From Bacteroidota bacterium (GTDB taxonomy: Bacteria > Bacteroidota > Bacteroidia > Chitinophagales > Chitinophagaceae): a stretch of 64,000 bases of DNA. Below the pieces are notes generated by a model that saw nothing but the letters and a program-made list of their open reading frames with translations, did not search any database and had not been told where the DNA came from. The first letter of the stretch is position 1; each line of letters opens with the position of its first letter. The position numbers and the translations under genes are program-made. The stretch is taken from positions 1-64,000 of the forward strand of contig JAKQEA010000157.1 of the NCBI GenBank assembly GCA_029558715.1. Direction: 5' to 3'. This document shows positions 12,324-18,871 of the stretch, piece by piece.

Positions 12324-12488
12324 GGTGAATTGTTTTGGGGAAGGTACGGATAAGGTAATTAGCTACCTTCTCTGATCTGGCTTTGCTGAAATACACTGGC
12401 ACTAATTAACTAATTAACCAATCAACTATCTTTACCCTAAGGCTGGCTCTGGTGGGCTGGCTTTTTGTATTTTTATAAACAGTCTGTT

Positions 12489-15014
12489 ATGAGCAAAGAA
12501 GCCAAAGCCAGGATCAAAATCAACAAACTGCTTGAAGAAGCAGGGTGGCGATTCTTTGATGATGAAGAAGGCCCGGCTAATATCCTGCTCGAAAATTATG
12601 TGAAGATTACTCAAAATGAAATTGATGCGTGGGGTAATGACTATGAAAAAACGAAAAGCGGTTCTTTAGATTTCTTACTCGTTGACAGTAATAATAAACC
12701 GTTCTGTGTACTTGAAGCAAAGAAAGAGAATATCCACCCTCTTACAGCAAAAGAACAGGCAAGAAAATATGCAAACACTGTCGGTGCACAGTTCATTATT
12801 CTTTCAAATGGCATTGTTCATTATTTATGGGATTTAAAAAAAGGTAACCCCAAACCCATTTATGCTTTTCCTTCTCCAGATGAAATAGGCGCCATTAAAG
12901 AATGGAACCCGGACCGTAATGCATTAGCTACTGAAAAGGTTACCAGCGATTATATTGTTACTGTTCAGATGCCGGATTATGCAGAAAGACCCGGATGGAA
13001 TGGCAGCGTTGAAAACAGTAAAGATTTTATCTGGACAAACGGACTTCGTTTTTTAAGACAGTATCAGCTTAACGCCATTACTGCATTACAGAAAGCCGTT
13101 GCAAAAGGCAAAGACCGTTTTCTTTTCGAAATGGCGACTGGTACAGGCAAGACATTGACATCCGCTGCTATAATCCGCTTATTTCTTCGTACAGAAAATG
13201 CAAGGCGGGTTTTGTTTTTAGTTGACCGACTGGAGCTGGAAGACCAGGCATGGAAAGCATTTACCAATAACCTGAAGCCTGATTACTCAACATTCATATT
13301 TAAAGAACATAAAAGCGATTGGAGAAAGGCGGATGTAGTGGTTACAACTATTCAATCGCTGATGTTCAACAATAAGTATCGTTATGATTTTACACCAACA
13401 GATTTTGACCTGATTATTTCTGATGAGTCACATCGTTCTATTTCCGGCAATGCAAGAGCCGTGTTTGAATATTTTCATGGATATAAATTAGGATTGACGG
13501 CAACGCCTAAAGATTATCTGAAGAACGTGGACATCAATAATGTGAGAGAGAACGACCCGAGAGAAATTGAACGCCGGATGTTAAGGGATACTTATAACAC
13601 CTTTGGCTGCGAAGGCGGCGAACCAACATTCCGCTATTCATTATTAGATGGTGTAAAAGATGGTTTCCTGATTAATCCAAGAGTATTGGATGCAAGAACA
13701 GAAATAACCACACAGTTACTTTCGGATGAGGGCTATTCGGTAGCCATTCCAACCGAAGAAGGAGAAGAAACCGAAACATTTATCTCAAGAGATTTTGAAA
13801 AGAAATTTTTTTCAAACAAAACAAACCGTGTTTTTTGTCAGACATTTTTGGAGAATGCATTAAAAGACCCCATCACCAACGAAACCGGTAAGACAATTGT
13901 GTTTGCCGTAAGTCAGAACCATGCAAGAAAACTGACGGAGATATTAAATGAATTTGCCGACCAACTCTATCCGGGTAAATACAATTCTGATTTTGCTGTA
14001 CAGGTTACTTCACAGGTGGGTGATGCGCAGCAAATGACCATCAACTTTACCAATAACAACCTGAACGGAAAAACAACATGGCTGGAAGGTTATAAATCCA
14101 GCAAGACAAGGGTGTGTGTAACCGTTGGGATGATGACAACCGGTTATGATTGTCCCGACCTGCTCAATCTCTGTATGATGCGGCCCATCTTCAGCCCGGC
14201 AGATTTTGTGCAGATAAAAGGCAGGGGTACAAGAAAAAATACATTTGAATACAAACATAAAAATGAACTGGGCGAAGAAGAAACAATCCAGCATGAGAAG
14301 AATGTTTTCAAGCTGTTTGACTTTTTTGCCAACTGCGAATACTTCGAAGAAAAATTTGATTACGACGAAGTGTTGAAACTGCCGAAACCAAAAGAAGGAA
14401 CAGGCACTGGTGGAGGCGGCGTAAACATCGACAAATATGATAGTTCTTTTCATGACAGGCTTTCTGTTATGAACGAAGAACAAATCGGGTTAGAAGGAAT
14501 GAAGATTGACCGGATGCTGTTTTCAAAATTTGAAGACCGCATCAAGATGGATGATATTATTAAAAAACATGTGGAGCTGGGCAATTGGGAGCATGTGATA
14601 AGTCATATACAACACGAAATATTTGATAAGCCTGAAGAATATTTTAACCTGGAGAAATTGCGCAAAGCAGCGCAGATAGACCGCAAGGTTTCTATCCGTG
14701 AAGTAGTGGAAAAAATATTCGGCATCATTCCGAAGTTCAAATCAAAAGATGAAATGCTGGAAGAAGAGTTTGACAAATTCATTTCCATTTATCCGCCTGA
14801 AGAAGATGTAAACCTGCGGGCTTTAAAGTATTTCTTCAAAGCCTATATTGTTGACCAGGACATCCGCAAGATTATTGAAGCAAAAGATTTTCATGCCTTG
14901 CAGACAAATCCAACACTAACCATTGCACAGTTTAAAGAAGTAACACCCAAATACCGGGAGGTAATTCCGGGATACATTAAAGACTATATACGTTTAGATC
15001 AGTTTGCAGCATAA
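12489..15014 (+). CDS. hsdR: Type I restriction enzyme, restriction/translocation subunit HsdR
   Basis: The start is ATG 12489 (MSKEAKARIK). The N-terminal nuclease domain shows the PD-(D/E)xK pattern, D61 with E76-A-K78. A superfamily 2 helicase follows: Walker A ATGTGKT, the DEAH-like ISDESHRS, and later QIKGRGTR. 841 residues matches EcoEI-type HsdR. It cuts unmodified DNA after ATP-driven translocation, with HsdM and HsdS. Its TAA overlaps the next ATG (TAATG), coupling it to an inserted transposase-like gene. Confidence 0.93.
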   Translation: MSKEAKARIKINKLLEEAGWRFFDDEEGPANILLENYVKITQNEIDAWGNDYEKTKSGSLDFLLVDSNNKPFCVLEAKKENIHPLTAKEQARKYANTVGAQFIILSNGIVHYLWDLKKGNPKPIYAFPSPDEIGAIKEWNPDRNALATEKVTSDYIVTVQMPDYAERPGWNGSVENSKDFIWTNGLRFLRQYQLNAITALQKAVAKGKDRFLFEMATGTGKTLTSAAIIRLFLRTENARRVLFLVDRLELEDQAWKAFTNNLKPDYSTFIFKEHKSDWRKADVVVTTIQSLMFNNKYRYDFTPTDFDLIISDESHRSISGNARAVFEYFHGYKLGLTATPKDYLKNVDINNVRENDPREIERRMLRDTYNTFGCEGGEPTFRYSLLDGVKDGFLINPRVLDARTEITTQLLSDEGYSVAIPTEEGEETETFISRDFEKKFFSNKTNRVFCQTFLENALKDPITNETGKTIVFAVSQNHARKLTEILNEFADQLYPGKYNSDFAVQVTSQVGDAQQMTINFTNNNLNGKTTWLEGYKSSKTRVCVTVGMMTTGYDCPDLLNLCMMRPIFSPADFVQIKGRGTRKNTFEYKHKNELGEEETIQHEKNVFKLFDFFANCEYFEEKFDYDEVLKLPKPKEGTGTGGGGVNIDKYDSSFHDRLSVMNEEQIGLEGMKIDRMLFSKFEDRIKMDDIIKKHVELGNWEHVISHIQHEIFDKPEEYFNLEKLRKAAQIDRKVSIREVVEKIFGIIPKFKSKDEMLEEEFDKFISIYPPEEDVNLRALKYFFKAYIVDQDIRKIIEAKDFHALQTNPTLTIAQFKEVTPKYREVIPGYIKDYIRLDQFAA

Positions 15015-15577
15015 TGGCAGAAAAATATCAAAATAAATACCGCATACCATCTGCCCGGTTGCCCGGTTGGGATTACGGACAGAACGCCGCTTATTTTGTT
15101 ACCATTTGCACAAAAAACAGGGAATGTTTTTTTGGTGAAATCGTGGATACACAAATGCAATTATCCGCCATCGGCAAAATTGCTGAAACAGAATGGTTAA
15201 AAACGCCGGGAATACGGCCGGATATGAAATTGGAATTGGGTGAATTTGTTGTAATGCCGAATCATTTGCATGGAATTATTATAATTGGCGAAAACGAATT
15301 TAATACGCAACGTGATGACGATGAACGTAGAGACGCAATGCATTGCGTCTCTACAGAAACCACCAATACATTCGGCCCGCAACCAAAAAACCTGGCATCC
15401 ATTATACGGGGGTACAAATCCGCCGTAAAAAAATATGCCAGCATGAACAGCATTAATTTCGCCTGGCAACCCCGTTTTCATGACCATATTATCCGGGACA
15501 ACCAATCATATCAGAACATTTCAAATTATATCATCAACAATCCGGTAAATTGGAAAACCGACGAATGGAACAGGTAA
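15014..15577 (+). CDS. REP-associated tyrosine transposase (RAYT, Y1/IS200-like)
   Basis: The IS200/Y1 fold is marked by FVTICTKNRECFFG, the HUH motif in MPNHLHGI (H84, H86) and the C-terminal YIINNP with the probable nucleophile Tyr172. RAYT proteins mobilise or maintain REP palindromes. Two such palindromes are here: a 28-bp one inside the gene (15327-15354, coding residues 105-114 in frame) and a 20-bp one directly after its stop (15578-15597). The gene sits between hsdR and hsdM with TAATG coupling, so it has been captured in the RM operon. It appears intact. Confidence 0.88.
   Translation: MAEKYQNKYRIPSARLPGWDYGQNAAYFVTICTKNRECFFGEIVDTQMQLSAIGKIAETEWLKTPGIRPDMKLELGEFVVMPNHLHGIIIIGENEFNTQRDDDERRDAMHCVSTETTNTFGPQPKNLASIIRGYKSAVKKYASMNSINFAWQPRFHDHIIRDNQSYQNISNYIINNPVNWKTDEWNR
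15327..15354. repeat. 28-bp perfect REP-like palindrome inside the RAYT gene
   Basis: GTAGAGACGCAATG is followed immediately by its exact reverse complement. It shares the AGACGCAA core with the palindrome after the gene. The insertion keeps the reading frame, coding an Arg-Arg-Asp-Ala-Met-His-Cys stretch between the conserved regions of the transposase. Confidence 0.9.
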
Positions 15578-15597
15578 AGACGCAAAATTTTGCGTCT
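15578..15597. repeat. 20-bp REP-like palindrome between the RAYT gene and hsdM-hsdS
   Basis: AGACGCAAAATTTTGCGTCT begins one base after the RAYT stop codon. It has the same core as the palindrome inside the gene and is expected to be a substrate of the transposase. It may also weaken transcription into hsdM. Confidence 0.85.
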
Positions 15598-15617
15598 CTG
15601 CGTAAACGAAATAAATC

Positions 15618-18185
15618 ATGTTAGATACCGCTACAAAAAAACGTATTGATGATTGCCGGGACATTCTTGTTGGTAAACTGCCCGACCCTAAGGCACAGAT
15701 TGAGCAAATCACCATTGGCCTCATCTATAAATTCATGGATGACATGGACAAAGAGGCCATTGACCTGGGTGGTAAAGCTAAATTCTTTGCTGACTATTCT
15801 ATTCCTGACCCCGAGAACCCAAAGAAAAAAAAGATAATTCCCTTTTCACAATACAGCTGGGATAATTTATTTAATACCAAAGTAACGGCGGCAGAAATGC
15901 TGCGACTGTATTCGGAAGCCATTGCAGGCATGGATAAAAATCCCAACATACCACAACTGTTCCGTGATATTTTTAAAAATGCTTTTTTACCTTACCGTGA
16001 CCCGGAAACATTAAAACTGTTTTTAAAAACCGTTGGTGAGTTTGAATATACCCACAGCGAAAAACTCGGTGATGCTTTTGAATACCTGTTATCGGTAATG
16101 GGCAGCCAGGGAGATGCGGGGCAGTTCCGCACACCCCGGCATATCATTGATTTTTTAGTGGCGGTGGTAAACCCCGGTAAAAAAGATACCATACTGGACC
16201 CTGCCTGTGGCACGGCGGGATTTTTAATTTCTGCTTTTAAACATATTAAAGAACAAAACAAAAAAGGCCTTACACCCGATGAACGGAAAAAGCTGATACA
16301 AAACTTTACCGGCTATGATATTTCTCCCGATATGGTGCGGCTGAGCCTGGTGAACCTGTACCTGCACGGATTTAATGACCCGCATATATGGGAGTATGAT
16401 ACGCTGAGCAGTGAAGAACGCTGGGATGAAACTGCCGATGTGATACTGGCCAACCCGCCATTTATGAGCCCGAAGGGTGGTATACGGCCGCATAAAAAAT
16501 TTTCCATCAGCAGCAACCGCAGCGAAGTATTGTTTGTGGATTATATAGCCGAACACCTGAACCCTAAAGGAAGGGCAGGTATTATTGTACCCGAAGGCGT
16601 GATATTCCAGAGCGGCACGGCGTATAAGGAATTAAGAAAAATGCTGGTGGAAAATTATTTGTATGCTGTAGTGAGCCTGCCTGCCGGTGTGTTTAACCCT
16701 TACAGTGGGGTAAAGACTTCCATTTTATTAATGGATGCGGCATTTGCTAAAACAAGCAATGAAATATTATTTGTAAAAATTGAAAATGATGGTTATGGTT
16801 TAGGTGCCCAGCGTACACCTGTAAAAGGAAGCCAGTTGGAAGAAGCGATTGAACTGTTGCGGCAATTTAAAGAAGGCAGTTTTACAGAAAGTGCATTAGC
16901 ACATGCTATTGCTAAAAATGAAATTGCAAAGAATGGGGATTATAATTTGAGTGGGGAGCGGTATAAAACAACCCTTTTAGGACAAACTGAGTTTGACTTA
17001 TTTGAATTAGACGAGCTGTTTGAAATTAAAAGAGGCGGCTCTCCGAGGCCTATAGAAGATTATATTACAGAAGATGAAAACGGAATTAATTGGATAAAGA
17101 TTGGTGATGTAGCTGAAGGGGCTAAATACATTACTTCTACAAAAGAGAAAATAAAACCTGAAGGATTAAAAAAATCGAGGTTGGTTGAACCTGGCGATTT
17201 TATACTTTCAAACTCAATGAGCTTCGGTAGACCATATATTGTAAATATAACCGGAGCAATTCATGACGGCTGGCTTGTATTTAAGCAACTTAAGAACAAC
17301 CTTAATAAAGATTATATCTTCCGAATACTTTCTTCCGATTATGTTAAGAATCAATTTTTAAAATCAGCTACCGGTGGAGTTGTAAAAAACTTAAATATTG
17401 ATTTAGTAAAGAAAGTCCAAATCCCCCTTCCTCCCTTATCCATACAAGAAGAAATAGTAGCCGAAATAGAAGGCTGGCAAAAAATAATAGATGGTGCCAA
17501 AGCAGTAACAGAAAACTACAAGCCCAAAATTGATATTAACCCGGAATGGGAAATGGTGGAGTTGGGGGAGTTAGTTATTATTCAAACAGGCGGAACGCCA
17601 TCCAAATCGAACAATAAATTTTGGGAAGGTGATATTCCTTGGGTTTCACCAAAAGATATGAAGCAAGATTTTATCGACGACTCTGAAGACCATATCTCAC
17701 AAAAAGCAGTTGAGGATAGTTCAACGAAAATTGTTCCTGAAAAGACAATACTTATTGTTGTCCGGTCGGGCATTTTAAAGCACACCATCCCAATTGCCCT
17801 TACAACGAAGCCTGTTAGTTTCAATCAGGATATTATAGCAATACAAACTTCAAATAAAAGATTGTCACCTGAATATCTATTTTATTATCTGAAAAGCACT
17901 TCTGACATTCATTTAAGTGAAGGAATAAAACCTGGCGTTACAGTTCAAAGTTTTCACAATGGCTATTTTAAGAAAATAAAGATTCCGTTAGTTTCACTCG
18001 AAACCCAGCGTCAAATCGTTTCTCAAATAGAAAAAGAGCAGGCCCTGGTAAATACCAATAAACAACTGATAGAAATTTTTGAACAAAAAATAAAAGACAG
18101 GATAGCTAAAGTGTGGGGTGCGGATAAGGCTGCACCGGTGCTGTATTTGGAAAATGATGAGCTGACGATGGCTGCGGAGGAGTAA
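15618..18185 (+). CDS. Type I RM fused methyltransferase-specificity protein (HsdM-HsdS)
   Basis: Residues 1 to about 465 are HsdM: the helical N-terminal domain, the AdoMet motif DPACGTAGF (194-202) and the N6-adenine catalytic motif NPPF (279-282). The remainder is HsdS with two target-recognition domains. The first begins near FELDELFEIKRGGSPRP and ends with KVQIPLPPLSIQEEI; the second begins near WEMVELGELVIIQTGGTPS and ends with KIKIPLVSLETQRQI, each followed by a coiled-coil spacer. 855 residues in one chain replaces the usual two genes. It protects host DNA and gives HsdR its specificity. No separate hsdS is seen. Confidence 0.92.
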   Translation: MLDTATKKRIDDCRDILVGKLPDPKAQIEQITIGLIYKFMDDMDKEAIDLGGKAKFFADYSIPDPENPKKKKIIPFSQYSWDNLFNTKVTAAEMLRLYSEAIAGMDKNPNIPQLFRDIFKNAFLPYRDPETLKLFLKTVGEFEYTHSEKLGDAFEYLLSVMGSQGDAGQFRTPRHIIDFLVAVVNPGKKDTILDPACGTAGFLISAFKHIKEQNKKGLTPDERKKLIQNFTGYDISPDMVRLSLVNLYLHGFNDPHIWEYDTLSSEERWDETADVILANPPFMSPKGGIRPHKKFSISSNRSEVLFVDYIAEHLNPKGRAGIIVPEGVIFQSGTAYKELRKMLVENYLYAVVSLPAGVFNPYSGVKTSILLMDAAFAKTSNEILFVKIENDGYGLGAQRTPVKGSQLEEAIELLRQFKEGSFTESALAHAIAKNEIAKNGDYNLSGERYKTTLLGQTEFDLFELDELFEIKRGGSPRPIEDYITEDENGINWIKIGDVAEGAKYITSTKEKIKPEGLKKSRLVEPGDFILSNSMSFGRPYIVNITGAIHDGWLVFKQLKNNLNKDYIFRILSSDYVKNQFLKSATGGVVKNLNIDLVKKVQIPLPPLSIQEEIVAEIEGWQKIIDGAKAVTENYKPKIDINPEWEMVELGELVIIQTGGTPSKSNNKFWEGDIPWVSPKDMKQDFIDDSEDHISQKAVEDSSTKIVPEKTILIVVRSGILKHTIPIALTTKPVSFNQDIIAIQTSNKRLSPEYLFYYLKSTSDIHLSEGIKPGVTVQSFHNGYFKKIKIPLVSLETQRQIVSQIEKEQALVNTNKQLIEIFEQKIKDRIAKVWGADKAAPVLYLENDELTMAAEE

Positions 18186-18235: not shown

Positions 18236-18871
18236 ATGAGCACAACAACCACAACCGGAGCCACTGCACCTCCAATAAAATCAGGAATGGGTCTTTCATT
18301 TATTCTTAAGGATAAAGATGCAACCATTCGCATTTATCTTGATTATGAATATTTGCCCCTCAAACAAATAACAGCATTAATAAAAAATGTAAATGATCTT
18401 TATGAGTTGGTGTATGTAATAATACACGATGAAAAAGTGCCAAAGAATGATATTCTTGCACTTGCAAAAGCGGAAACAACTAATTCTTTGGAGTGGGTTG
18501 CACAACTGGTTAAAGAACTAAAGCCATCGAAAAAGGCTATCAGGGCATTAATCATTACAGGTTTGTTGATACAGTCACCGGTAATGATTGAAGATTATAA
18601 ACAAACAAGAGCAGACAGAATACATACGGAGTACCTGATTGAAAAAGTCAAAGCTGAGACCCGCAAAATAAATGCTGATGCAGAAAAGACTGAATTGGAA
18701 AATAAGATAACTAAGATGAAATTGGACGAAGCAGAAAAAAGGAAACTTCGGCAGGCTACTAATAAGAAAAAGGTGGAAACAAAAGTTATTCAGATAAAAA
18801 AGACTATAATTAACAACACAGTAAACATCTGTTCCGTAAATGGTGATGTGATATATAAAAAAGAGGATTGA
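18236..18871 (+). CDS. Protein of unknown function following the type I RM genes
   Basis: No family recognised. The 211-residue product has a Thr-rich N-terminus, a mixed alpha/beta middle (IRIYLDYEYLPLKQITALIKNV) and a long charged coiled coil (about residues 125-185, rich in Lys/Glu). The C-terminal VNICSVNGDVIYKKED may form a short beta hairpin. It starts 50 bases after hsdMS on the same strand and is followed by a terminator hairpin, so it may belong to the RM operon. An accessory defence role is possible but not shown. Confidence 0.6.
   Translation: MSTTTTTGATAPPIKSGMGLSFILKDKDATIRIYLDYEYLPLKQITALIKNVNDLYELVYVIIHDEKVPKNDILALAKAETTNSLEWVAQLVKELKPSKKAIRALIITGLLIQSPVMIEDYKQTRADRIHTEYLIEKVKAETRKINADAEKTELENKITKMKLDEAEKRKLRQATNKKKVETKVIQIKKTIINNTVNICSVNGDVIYKKED

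Follow-up and report, generated by a model that had tools for sequence, protein, structure and literature searches.

The window, that is, the whole 64,000-nt stretch of DNA analysed here, is the first 64 kb of a 70-kb contig in a 4.02-Mb assembly. It carries a type I restriction–modification (RM) operon in which hsdR and a fused hsdMS gene enclose a gene for a REP-associated transposase (RAYT, or tnpA-REP), and the following features are distinguished.

12465..15014, plus strand: hsdR, type I restriction subunit R (ResIII and HSDR_N matches; EcoAI-type HsdR match below its cut-off)
15012..15016, plus strand: TAATG, in which the hsdR stop overlaps the RAYT start (from the sequence)
15014..15577, plus strand: RAYT/tnpA-REP gene, HUH Y1 nuclease of 187 aa, subclass 2.4 type (NHLH, WQ and YIINNP; HUH 84-86, Y172)
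15327..15354, plus strand: in-gene double-foot REP, a perfect 28-bp palindrome coding for residues 105-114
15574..15601, plus strand: REP on the 3' flank, its feet degenerate (GTAA...CTGC) and the RAYT stop codon within it (from the sequence)
15618..18185, plus strand: hsdMS, fused methyltransferase and specificity subunit of 855 aa (N6_Mtase and two Methylase_S stretches)

All three genes run in one direction (+), and hsdR, hsdM and hsdS occur together, the latter two fused, as expected of a type I RM operon. The placement of the RAYT gene between hsdR and hsdMS with TAATG coupling, described earlier by a sequence-only reading of this DNA, is borne out by ORF coordinates and domain matches. 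The listed start of hsdR is TTG, and the true start may lie slightly further in; at its other end, the last A of the stop codon TAA (15012-15014) is the first base of the RAYT ATG. Three homologues that also sit in hsd operons show this −2 overlap with a long ORF upstream, and it is reported for none of the other 77 of 80. From this overlap, coupling of RAYT expression to RM expression is plausible. A 211-aa ORF (18236-18871) follows hsdMS and has no Pfam match at E 0.001.

By sequence, the RAYT matches PDB entry 4er8 (TnpA-REP; E 5e-6), which is also its best PDB fold (E 3e-7, TM 0.53-0.60). It scores 61.2 bits (E 9e-17) against NCBIfam NF047646 (REP_Tyr_transpos), for which the cut-off is 80, and matches no Pfam family at E 0.001, and thus not Y1_Tnp; these missed cut-offs are annotation thresholds, not biological features. 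Residues H84, H86, W151, Q152 and Y172 are invariant in 45 alignment rows. Judged by its motifs, the protein belongs to subclass 2.4 of Quentin 2018: it has W151Q152, YIINNP at 172-177 (YIxNNP), and a variable loop (92-126) after the HUH strand. In place of NH[IFV]H it reads NHLH, a conservative variant. The AF2 model (pLDDT 82.8) places the HUH strand at 84-91, the loop at 92-126, a helix at 127-144 and Y172 within the helix 163-174. Judging from the span of the 4er8 alignment (residue 139 aligned to chain position 82), helix 127-144 corresponds to alpha3 of Escherichia coli TnpA-REP. The pLDDT falls below 50 at 104-116, and the REP-coded residues 105-114 are thus predicted to form a floppy loop shortly before the equivalent of the DNA-binding helix. 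The window assembly has one RAYT gene match, and no GTAG-type palindrome was found between 14700 and the RAYT start codon, so that an IS200/IS605 insertion sequence is not supported. Among 72,556 plasmid records, two have a match, both at less than 60% identity.

The in-gene palindrome, GTAGAGACGCAATGCATTGCGTCTCTAC, is of the GTAG...CTAC type and reads in frame as RRDAMHCVST (residues 105-114). The palindrome 3' of the RAYT stop, AGACGCAAAATTTTGCGTCT (15578-15597), becomes a REP with damaged feet when extended outwards, and its first foot contains the RAYT stop codon; likewise, the 3' REP of L014 and L049, or what is left of it, has the stop codon at its start. A REP flanks this RAYT gene on the 3' side only, with degenerate feet, and hsdR abuts the 5' end. 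The perfect 28-bp in-frame palindrome, its ten residues and the related palindrome after the stop, all noted before, are thus confirmed in the sequence. AGACGCA..TGCGTCT is common to both palindromes, and the inner core bases differ (GCAATG in the gene, GCAAAA in the 3' REP). With a gap of up to 25 nt, AGACGCA..TGCGTCT occurs in the assembly at these two palindromes and nowhere else, and the strict palindrome GTAG[AG]G[AG]C has one copy in the 4.02 Mb, the in-gene REP. The sequence-only reading had named a lack of further genomic copies as evidence against itself. The 28-mer indeed has none, and taken literally this tells against the reading, but weakly, because in 12 of 50 genomes surveyed nothing but the in-gene REP or REPs matches strictly. 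Because 28 is not divisible by 3, the frame is kept solely with flanking bases gained or lost.

The in-gene REP is a family-wide feature. From 564 relatives, ordered by similarity to the window, the best 80 formed the homologue set; with the window this makes 81 genes, of which 73 were readable and 8 were dropped for stops or because the motif could not be located. A loop palindrome (arm of at least 10, at most one mismatch) is present in 58 of the 73, compared with a mean of 1.45 and a maximum of 4 in 20 codon shuffles of the loops, so that a chance palindrome is rejected; perfect arms of at least 13 occur in 38 of the 73. The other 15 genes, mostly with short loops, lack a loop palindrome, which is therefore dispensable. 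A further set from a class search (29 loci attempted, of which 8 repeated the first set or were otherwise not separately readable) added 15 new readable genes, 14 with a palindrome where 0.32 was expected, or 13 of 14 when the near-copies L093 and L094 are counted once. The GTAG foot lies in codon phase 0 in 33 cases, in phase 1 in 30 and in phase 2, which would read TAG, in none (63 palindromes, 56 genes; the foot of L025 was taken from the wrong motif, its GTAG having phase 0; L044, L059 and L069 are uncertain). On a rough, quick tree, the phase changed at least eight times. Since two of the three frames are used, it is the DNA that recurs, not the peptide. REPs also occur elsewhere in RAYT genes, at about residues 44-70 in L016, L021 and L047 and C-terminally in L026 and L058. 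In 50 genomes of the 81 loci, chosen for having such a RAYT, there are 323 strict REPs, of which 34 (33 genomes) lie in the RAYT reading frame, with 0.05 expected in the gene, and 12 lie within 400 nt of the RAYT gene.

These counts bear on the earlier suggestion that the enzyme had inserted its substrate into its own gene once and survived. A single recent self-insertion in the window genome is rejected, the feature being family-wide and published for the subclass, while the companion proposal of a loop tolerant of the insert finds support. The residues are not constant over unrelated DNA either, a pattern that would have spoken against the sequence-only reading; the homologues have palindromes with differing cores in two reading frames. 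Two side observations concern the form of these palindromes. In L025, L031, L049, L073, L075 and L035, perfect palindromy continues beyond the GTAG...CTAC feet into the coding flanks, with arms of up to 24 nt, and template switching at the hairpin might produce such arms. In L145/L154, an hsdR-RAYT-hsdM operon, the RAYT is 368 aa long and its loop consists of 12 detected palindromes in one open frame, with two cores alternating.

The REP core is related to the flanking REPs and to particular parts of the protein, two of which stand out:

15353..15445, plus strand: proposed REP-recognition module, linker 114-126 and helix 127-144 (core covariation, model, 4er8 alignment)
15188..15232, plus strand: residues 59-73, a second stretch tracking the REP core (core covariation)

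In 27 genes, the likeness of the in-gene core to the gene's own flank cores is 0.765, compared with 0.577 to the flanks of other genes (0 of 5000 shuffles), kinship still being included in the statistic; in 8 of the 27, the in-gene and own flank REP are identical over the central 20 nt. The near-isogenic loci L066 and L089, whose N-terminal parts are 95% identical and whose compared flanks are nearly identical, differ jointly in the cores of the in-gene and 3' REPs and in some 80 nt that follow the in-gene REP, and this joint change prompted a test of the core against segments of the protein. Across 67 genes, excess mutual information with the core class, in bits per residue, is 0.04 for residues 1-30, 0.13 for 31-60, 0.30 for 61-91 and 0.46 for 92-103, and, downstream of the palindrome, 0.78 for 114-126, 0.40 for 127-144, 0.12 for 145-162 and 0.04 for 163-187; residue 114 shares two bases with the palindrome foot. 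The low values at both ends are partly due to conservation, and a pairwise comparison was therefore added. Here, core similarity correlates with identity at r 0.65 for 114-144, 0.50 for helix 127-144 alone and 0.47 for 59-73, in contrast to 0.27 for 74-92, 0.11 for 1-58 and 0.12 for 145-187. Given 1-58, 74-92 and 145-187, segment 114-144 has a partial r of 0.62 and the helix by itself one of 0.45 (85 genes; 0 of 499 permutations each, which do not fully remove kinship). Among pairs with an N-terminal identity of at least 0.70, core similarity is 0.27 if the modules differ (43 pairs) and 0.90 if they are alike (28 pairs). The core can thus be predicted from the neighbouring linker and DNA-binding helix (114-144) together with 59-73, whereas the N- and C-terminal parts have little predictive value.

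The flanking palindromes share the same module–core pattern. Flank cores, available for 49 of 109 genes, some of them in palindromes that may be no REPs, correlate with 114-144 at r 0.48 (partial 0.46, 0 of 999 permutations), but with the intervening C-terminus at 0.09. Since flank REPs track the module and not the C-terminus between, recognition explains the match better than mere neighbourhood, although adjacency accounts for part of the in-gene association. In class counts over 83 genes, GCxATG or GCAARA-like cores accompany FGPQSKN-type modules in 40 of 43, GTTG cores accompany ISP modules in 10 of 13, ARGRCA cores accompany R[FY]xN modules in 12 of 13, and GC[AG]ATT cores accompany NPML modules in 5 of 5; the remaining 9 have both module and core unclassed, and the core is unlike the class prediction in 7 of the 74 genes with a classed module. 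The class patterns M3, M4, A, B and F were widened or added once the second set of genes was known (70 loci tried, 26 unreadable, 8 duplicates, 36 kept); the pairwise and flank tests are free of classes. On a tree built without module and loop, quick and imperfect as such trees are, the core class changes at least 30 times. On supported branches, 11 pairs in four overlapping tests (2-4 independent per class) include about 10 concordant ones, none of the four tests being significant.

The order hsdR-RAYT-hsdM recurs in L014, L049, L062 and L145, and hsdR is 84-95% identical among the slot loci. HsdR is 92.6% identical between the window and L049 and 95.2% between L014 and L062 (HsdM 87.8% and 91.6%), whereas the RAYTs of the same pairs share 55.7% and 52.2%. 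The RAYTs pair the opposite way, the window with L014 (65.2%) and L049 with L062 (62.2%). At the DNA level, L014 and L062 are 58-69% identical across the whole RAYT gene and 87-89% in the flanks; the window and L049 are 74% identical in the first 174 nt of the gene and 62-67% in the rest, with flanks at 85% and 79%. A single clade of the RAYTs of the window, L014, L049 and L062 is rejected (p-AU 4e-6). The pairs window and L014 (p 0.75), L049 and L062 (p 0.40) and window and L049 (p 0.10) are each unrejected, so the result amounts to at least two lineages in the slot, not four; the tree constrained to window plus L014 was better than the free one, so that the quick tree and its change counts are rough. 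The RAYT lineages in the slot thus diverge from the kinship of the surrounding hsdR and hsdM.

The junction between hsdR and hsdM is a recurrent slot. In a survey of 36 loci (6 incomplete, 2 duplicates), 27 complete junctions reached by HsdR searches comprised 14 empty ones (up to 28 nt), 4 with a RAYT including the window, 3 with an IS200-like Y1 transposase, 2 with a Fic protein and 4 with something else; L049, reached through its RAYT, brings the RAYT junctions to 5 of 28. The IS200-like transposase (PF01797; L123, L127 and L152) is a second HUH family in this slot, and in L123 and L127 it is followed by short repeats; L147 and L148 have the Fic/DOC protein. Same-strand type I neighbours accompany at least 8 of the 80 homologues: hsdR upstream and hsdM downstream in L014, L049 and L062; hsdM upstream and hsdS downstream in L035 and L058; hsdM upstream in L020, with an hsdS match 0.7 kb downstream, and in L026; and hsdR downstream in L080. 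The top neighbour families are those of type I systems (N6_Mtase in 4 of 76 upstream, Methylase_S in 5 of 77 downstream), and type I families are absent among the 25 listed of 133 families for 129 ORFs at least 3 kb away, a listing that may conceal families matched only once. At about 4873-5001 of L067, a remnant of the hsdR C-terminus (61% over 41 residues) ends in TGATG at the RAYT start; here the RM operon seems to have been lost and the RAYT kept.

Taken together, we consider it rather probable that the window gene is a subclass 2.4 RAYT that has joined a type I RM operon as an additional gene, that it holds a REP of its own kind in a permissive loop, and that REP and module are swapped together. 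RAYT-mediated single-strand insertion in cis may first have brought REPs into the loop, and the linker–helix segment would read the REP stem, as homology with E. coli TnpA-REP suggests. Recombination would then swap the in-gene REP and the recognition segment jointly, like a cassette, whereby a gene changing its target specificity would receive the matching substrate. RAYTs in the slot between hsdR and hsdM may likewise be exchanged, and the RM operon could carry the RAYT horizontally, as a passenger in a vehicle. Against this reading stand the differing in-gene and 3' cores of the window and the 15 of 73 genes without a palindrome. A bolder version, in which subclass 2.4 RAYTs have at their centre a mobile specificity cassette moved at palindromes, and slot RAYTs are exchanged whole or as mosaics while the RM genes stay, is advanced tentatively, at somewhat less than even odds. 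If true, one step would bring both a target change and the new substrate, which would explain REP 'orthoswitches', and the exchange of slot RAYTs would resemble that of specificity genes.

The main rival is neutral tolerance with hitch-hiking: REPs land near their donors, the loop accepts them, they play no role, and the core–module match reflects shared recombination tracts. Such an account is consistent with the low-confidence loop of the model, as expected of a disordered loop, with REPs at other RAYT sites, with two frames in use and genes that lack a palindrome, and with excess information that declines on both sides of the palindrome; Quentin 2018 (PMC6006769) judged it possible that the REPs affect activity but little. 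It fits poorly with flank REPs that track the module and not the C-terminal segment in between, and with residues 59-73, whose agreement with the core exceeds that of the more conserved stretch 74-92 in between, and we regard it as unlikely, though still a serious contender. The perfect arms could alternatively be kept by template switching at hairpins.

Autoregulation, in which the enzyme binds a hairpin in its mRNA or single-stranded DNA and limits its own production, the module match being selected for this, is distinctly improbable. The predicted RNA hairpin is strong (−22.2 kcal/mol for 88 nt, z −3.6) and the core matches the presumed recognition helix, but no terminator-like site was found on the coding strand, no Rfam family reaches its gathering score, and genes without the palindrome persist. 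We know of no RNA binding by RAYTs. A role of the ten residues as a peptide, e.g. in dimer or REP contacts, agrees with a frame kept in the readable genes and the same loop in most, but the two frames yield unrelated peptides (RDAMHCVST and VETQNFASL) in a low-confidence region of the model, and it is hardly credible.

The correlation between core and segment amounts to a readable code, by which the hairpin used by an enzyme and the residues that decide it may be predicted from the gene. Sets of enzyme and substrate pairs are available, including the near-isogenic pair L066/L089. The RM slot hints at a way in which a transposase-like gene with no evident mobility of its own could travel.

The in-gene REP as such has been published before. 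In the portion of Quentin 2018 (PMC6006769) used here, REPs placed in frame between the HUH motif and the catalytic tyrosine are given as a unique feature of tnpA-REP subclass 2.4, which equals RAYT group 4 of Bertels. This account gives the motif as NH[IFV]H, compared with NHLH in the window, and, as far as it was covered, mentions no match between in-gene core and recognition segment, unlike the pattern found here; the word 'restriction' occurs 0 times in it and RM operons go unmentioned, whereas the window RAYT sits in one. The literature cited here, in the parts covered, contains no demonstration of activity for any subclass 2.4 RAYT. Among the literature matches listed, with few subscription journals covered, neither RAYTs in type I operons (titles and abstract starts) nor a core–module match in RAYTs is described, and the specificity pattern linking core and recognition segment looks new. 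Di Nocera 2013 (PMC3733652) resembles the present case in the GTAG tag, in in-frame REPs within coding sequences, and in REPs on the flanks of RAYT genes, whose ends they may overlap; the sections considered describe no REP in the middle of a RAYT gene, as the window has. E. coli TnpA-REP (4er8; PMC8266576) shares the HUH Y1 fold, and its DNA-binding helix, equivalent to window residues 127-144, contacts the REP; it differs in belonging to group 2 and in its bulged REPs, and an in-gene REP is unmentioned in what was covered of that paper. The closest precedent for a change of REP type is the 'orthoswitch' of Nunvar 2013 (PMC3686654), in which syntenic RAYTs are flanked by different REPs, and for which the authors, in the text considered, call the mechanism speculation alone. 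It concerns pseudomonads and stenotrophomonads, placed in subclass 2.5 by Quentin 2018, whereas the window RAYT is of subclass 2.4. In contrast to that case, the in-gene REP and the protein segment here change along with the flank REP (L066/L089), and a specificity cassette would supply a mechanism for the switches of REP type that Nunvar 2013 left open.
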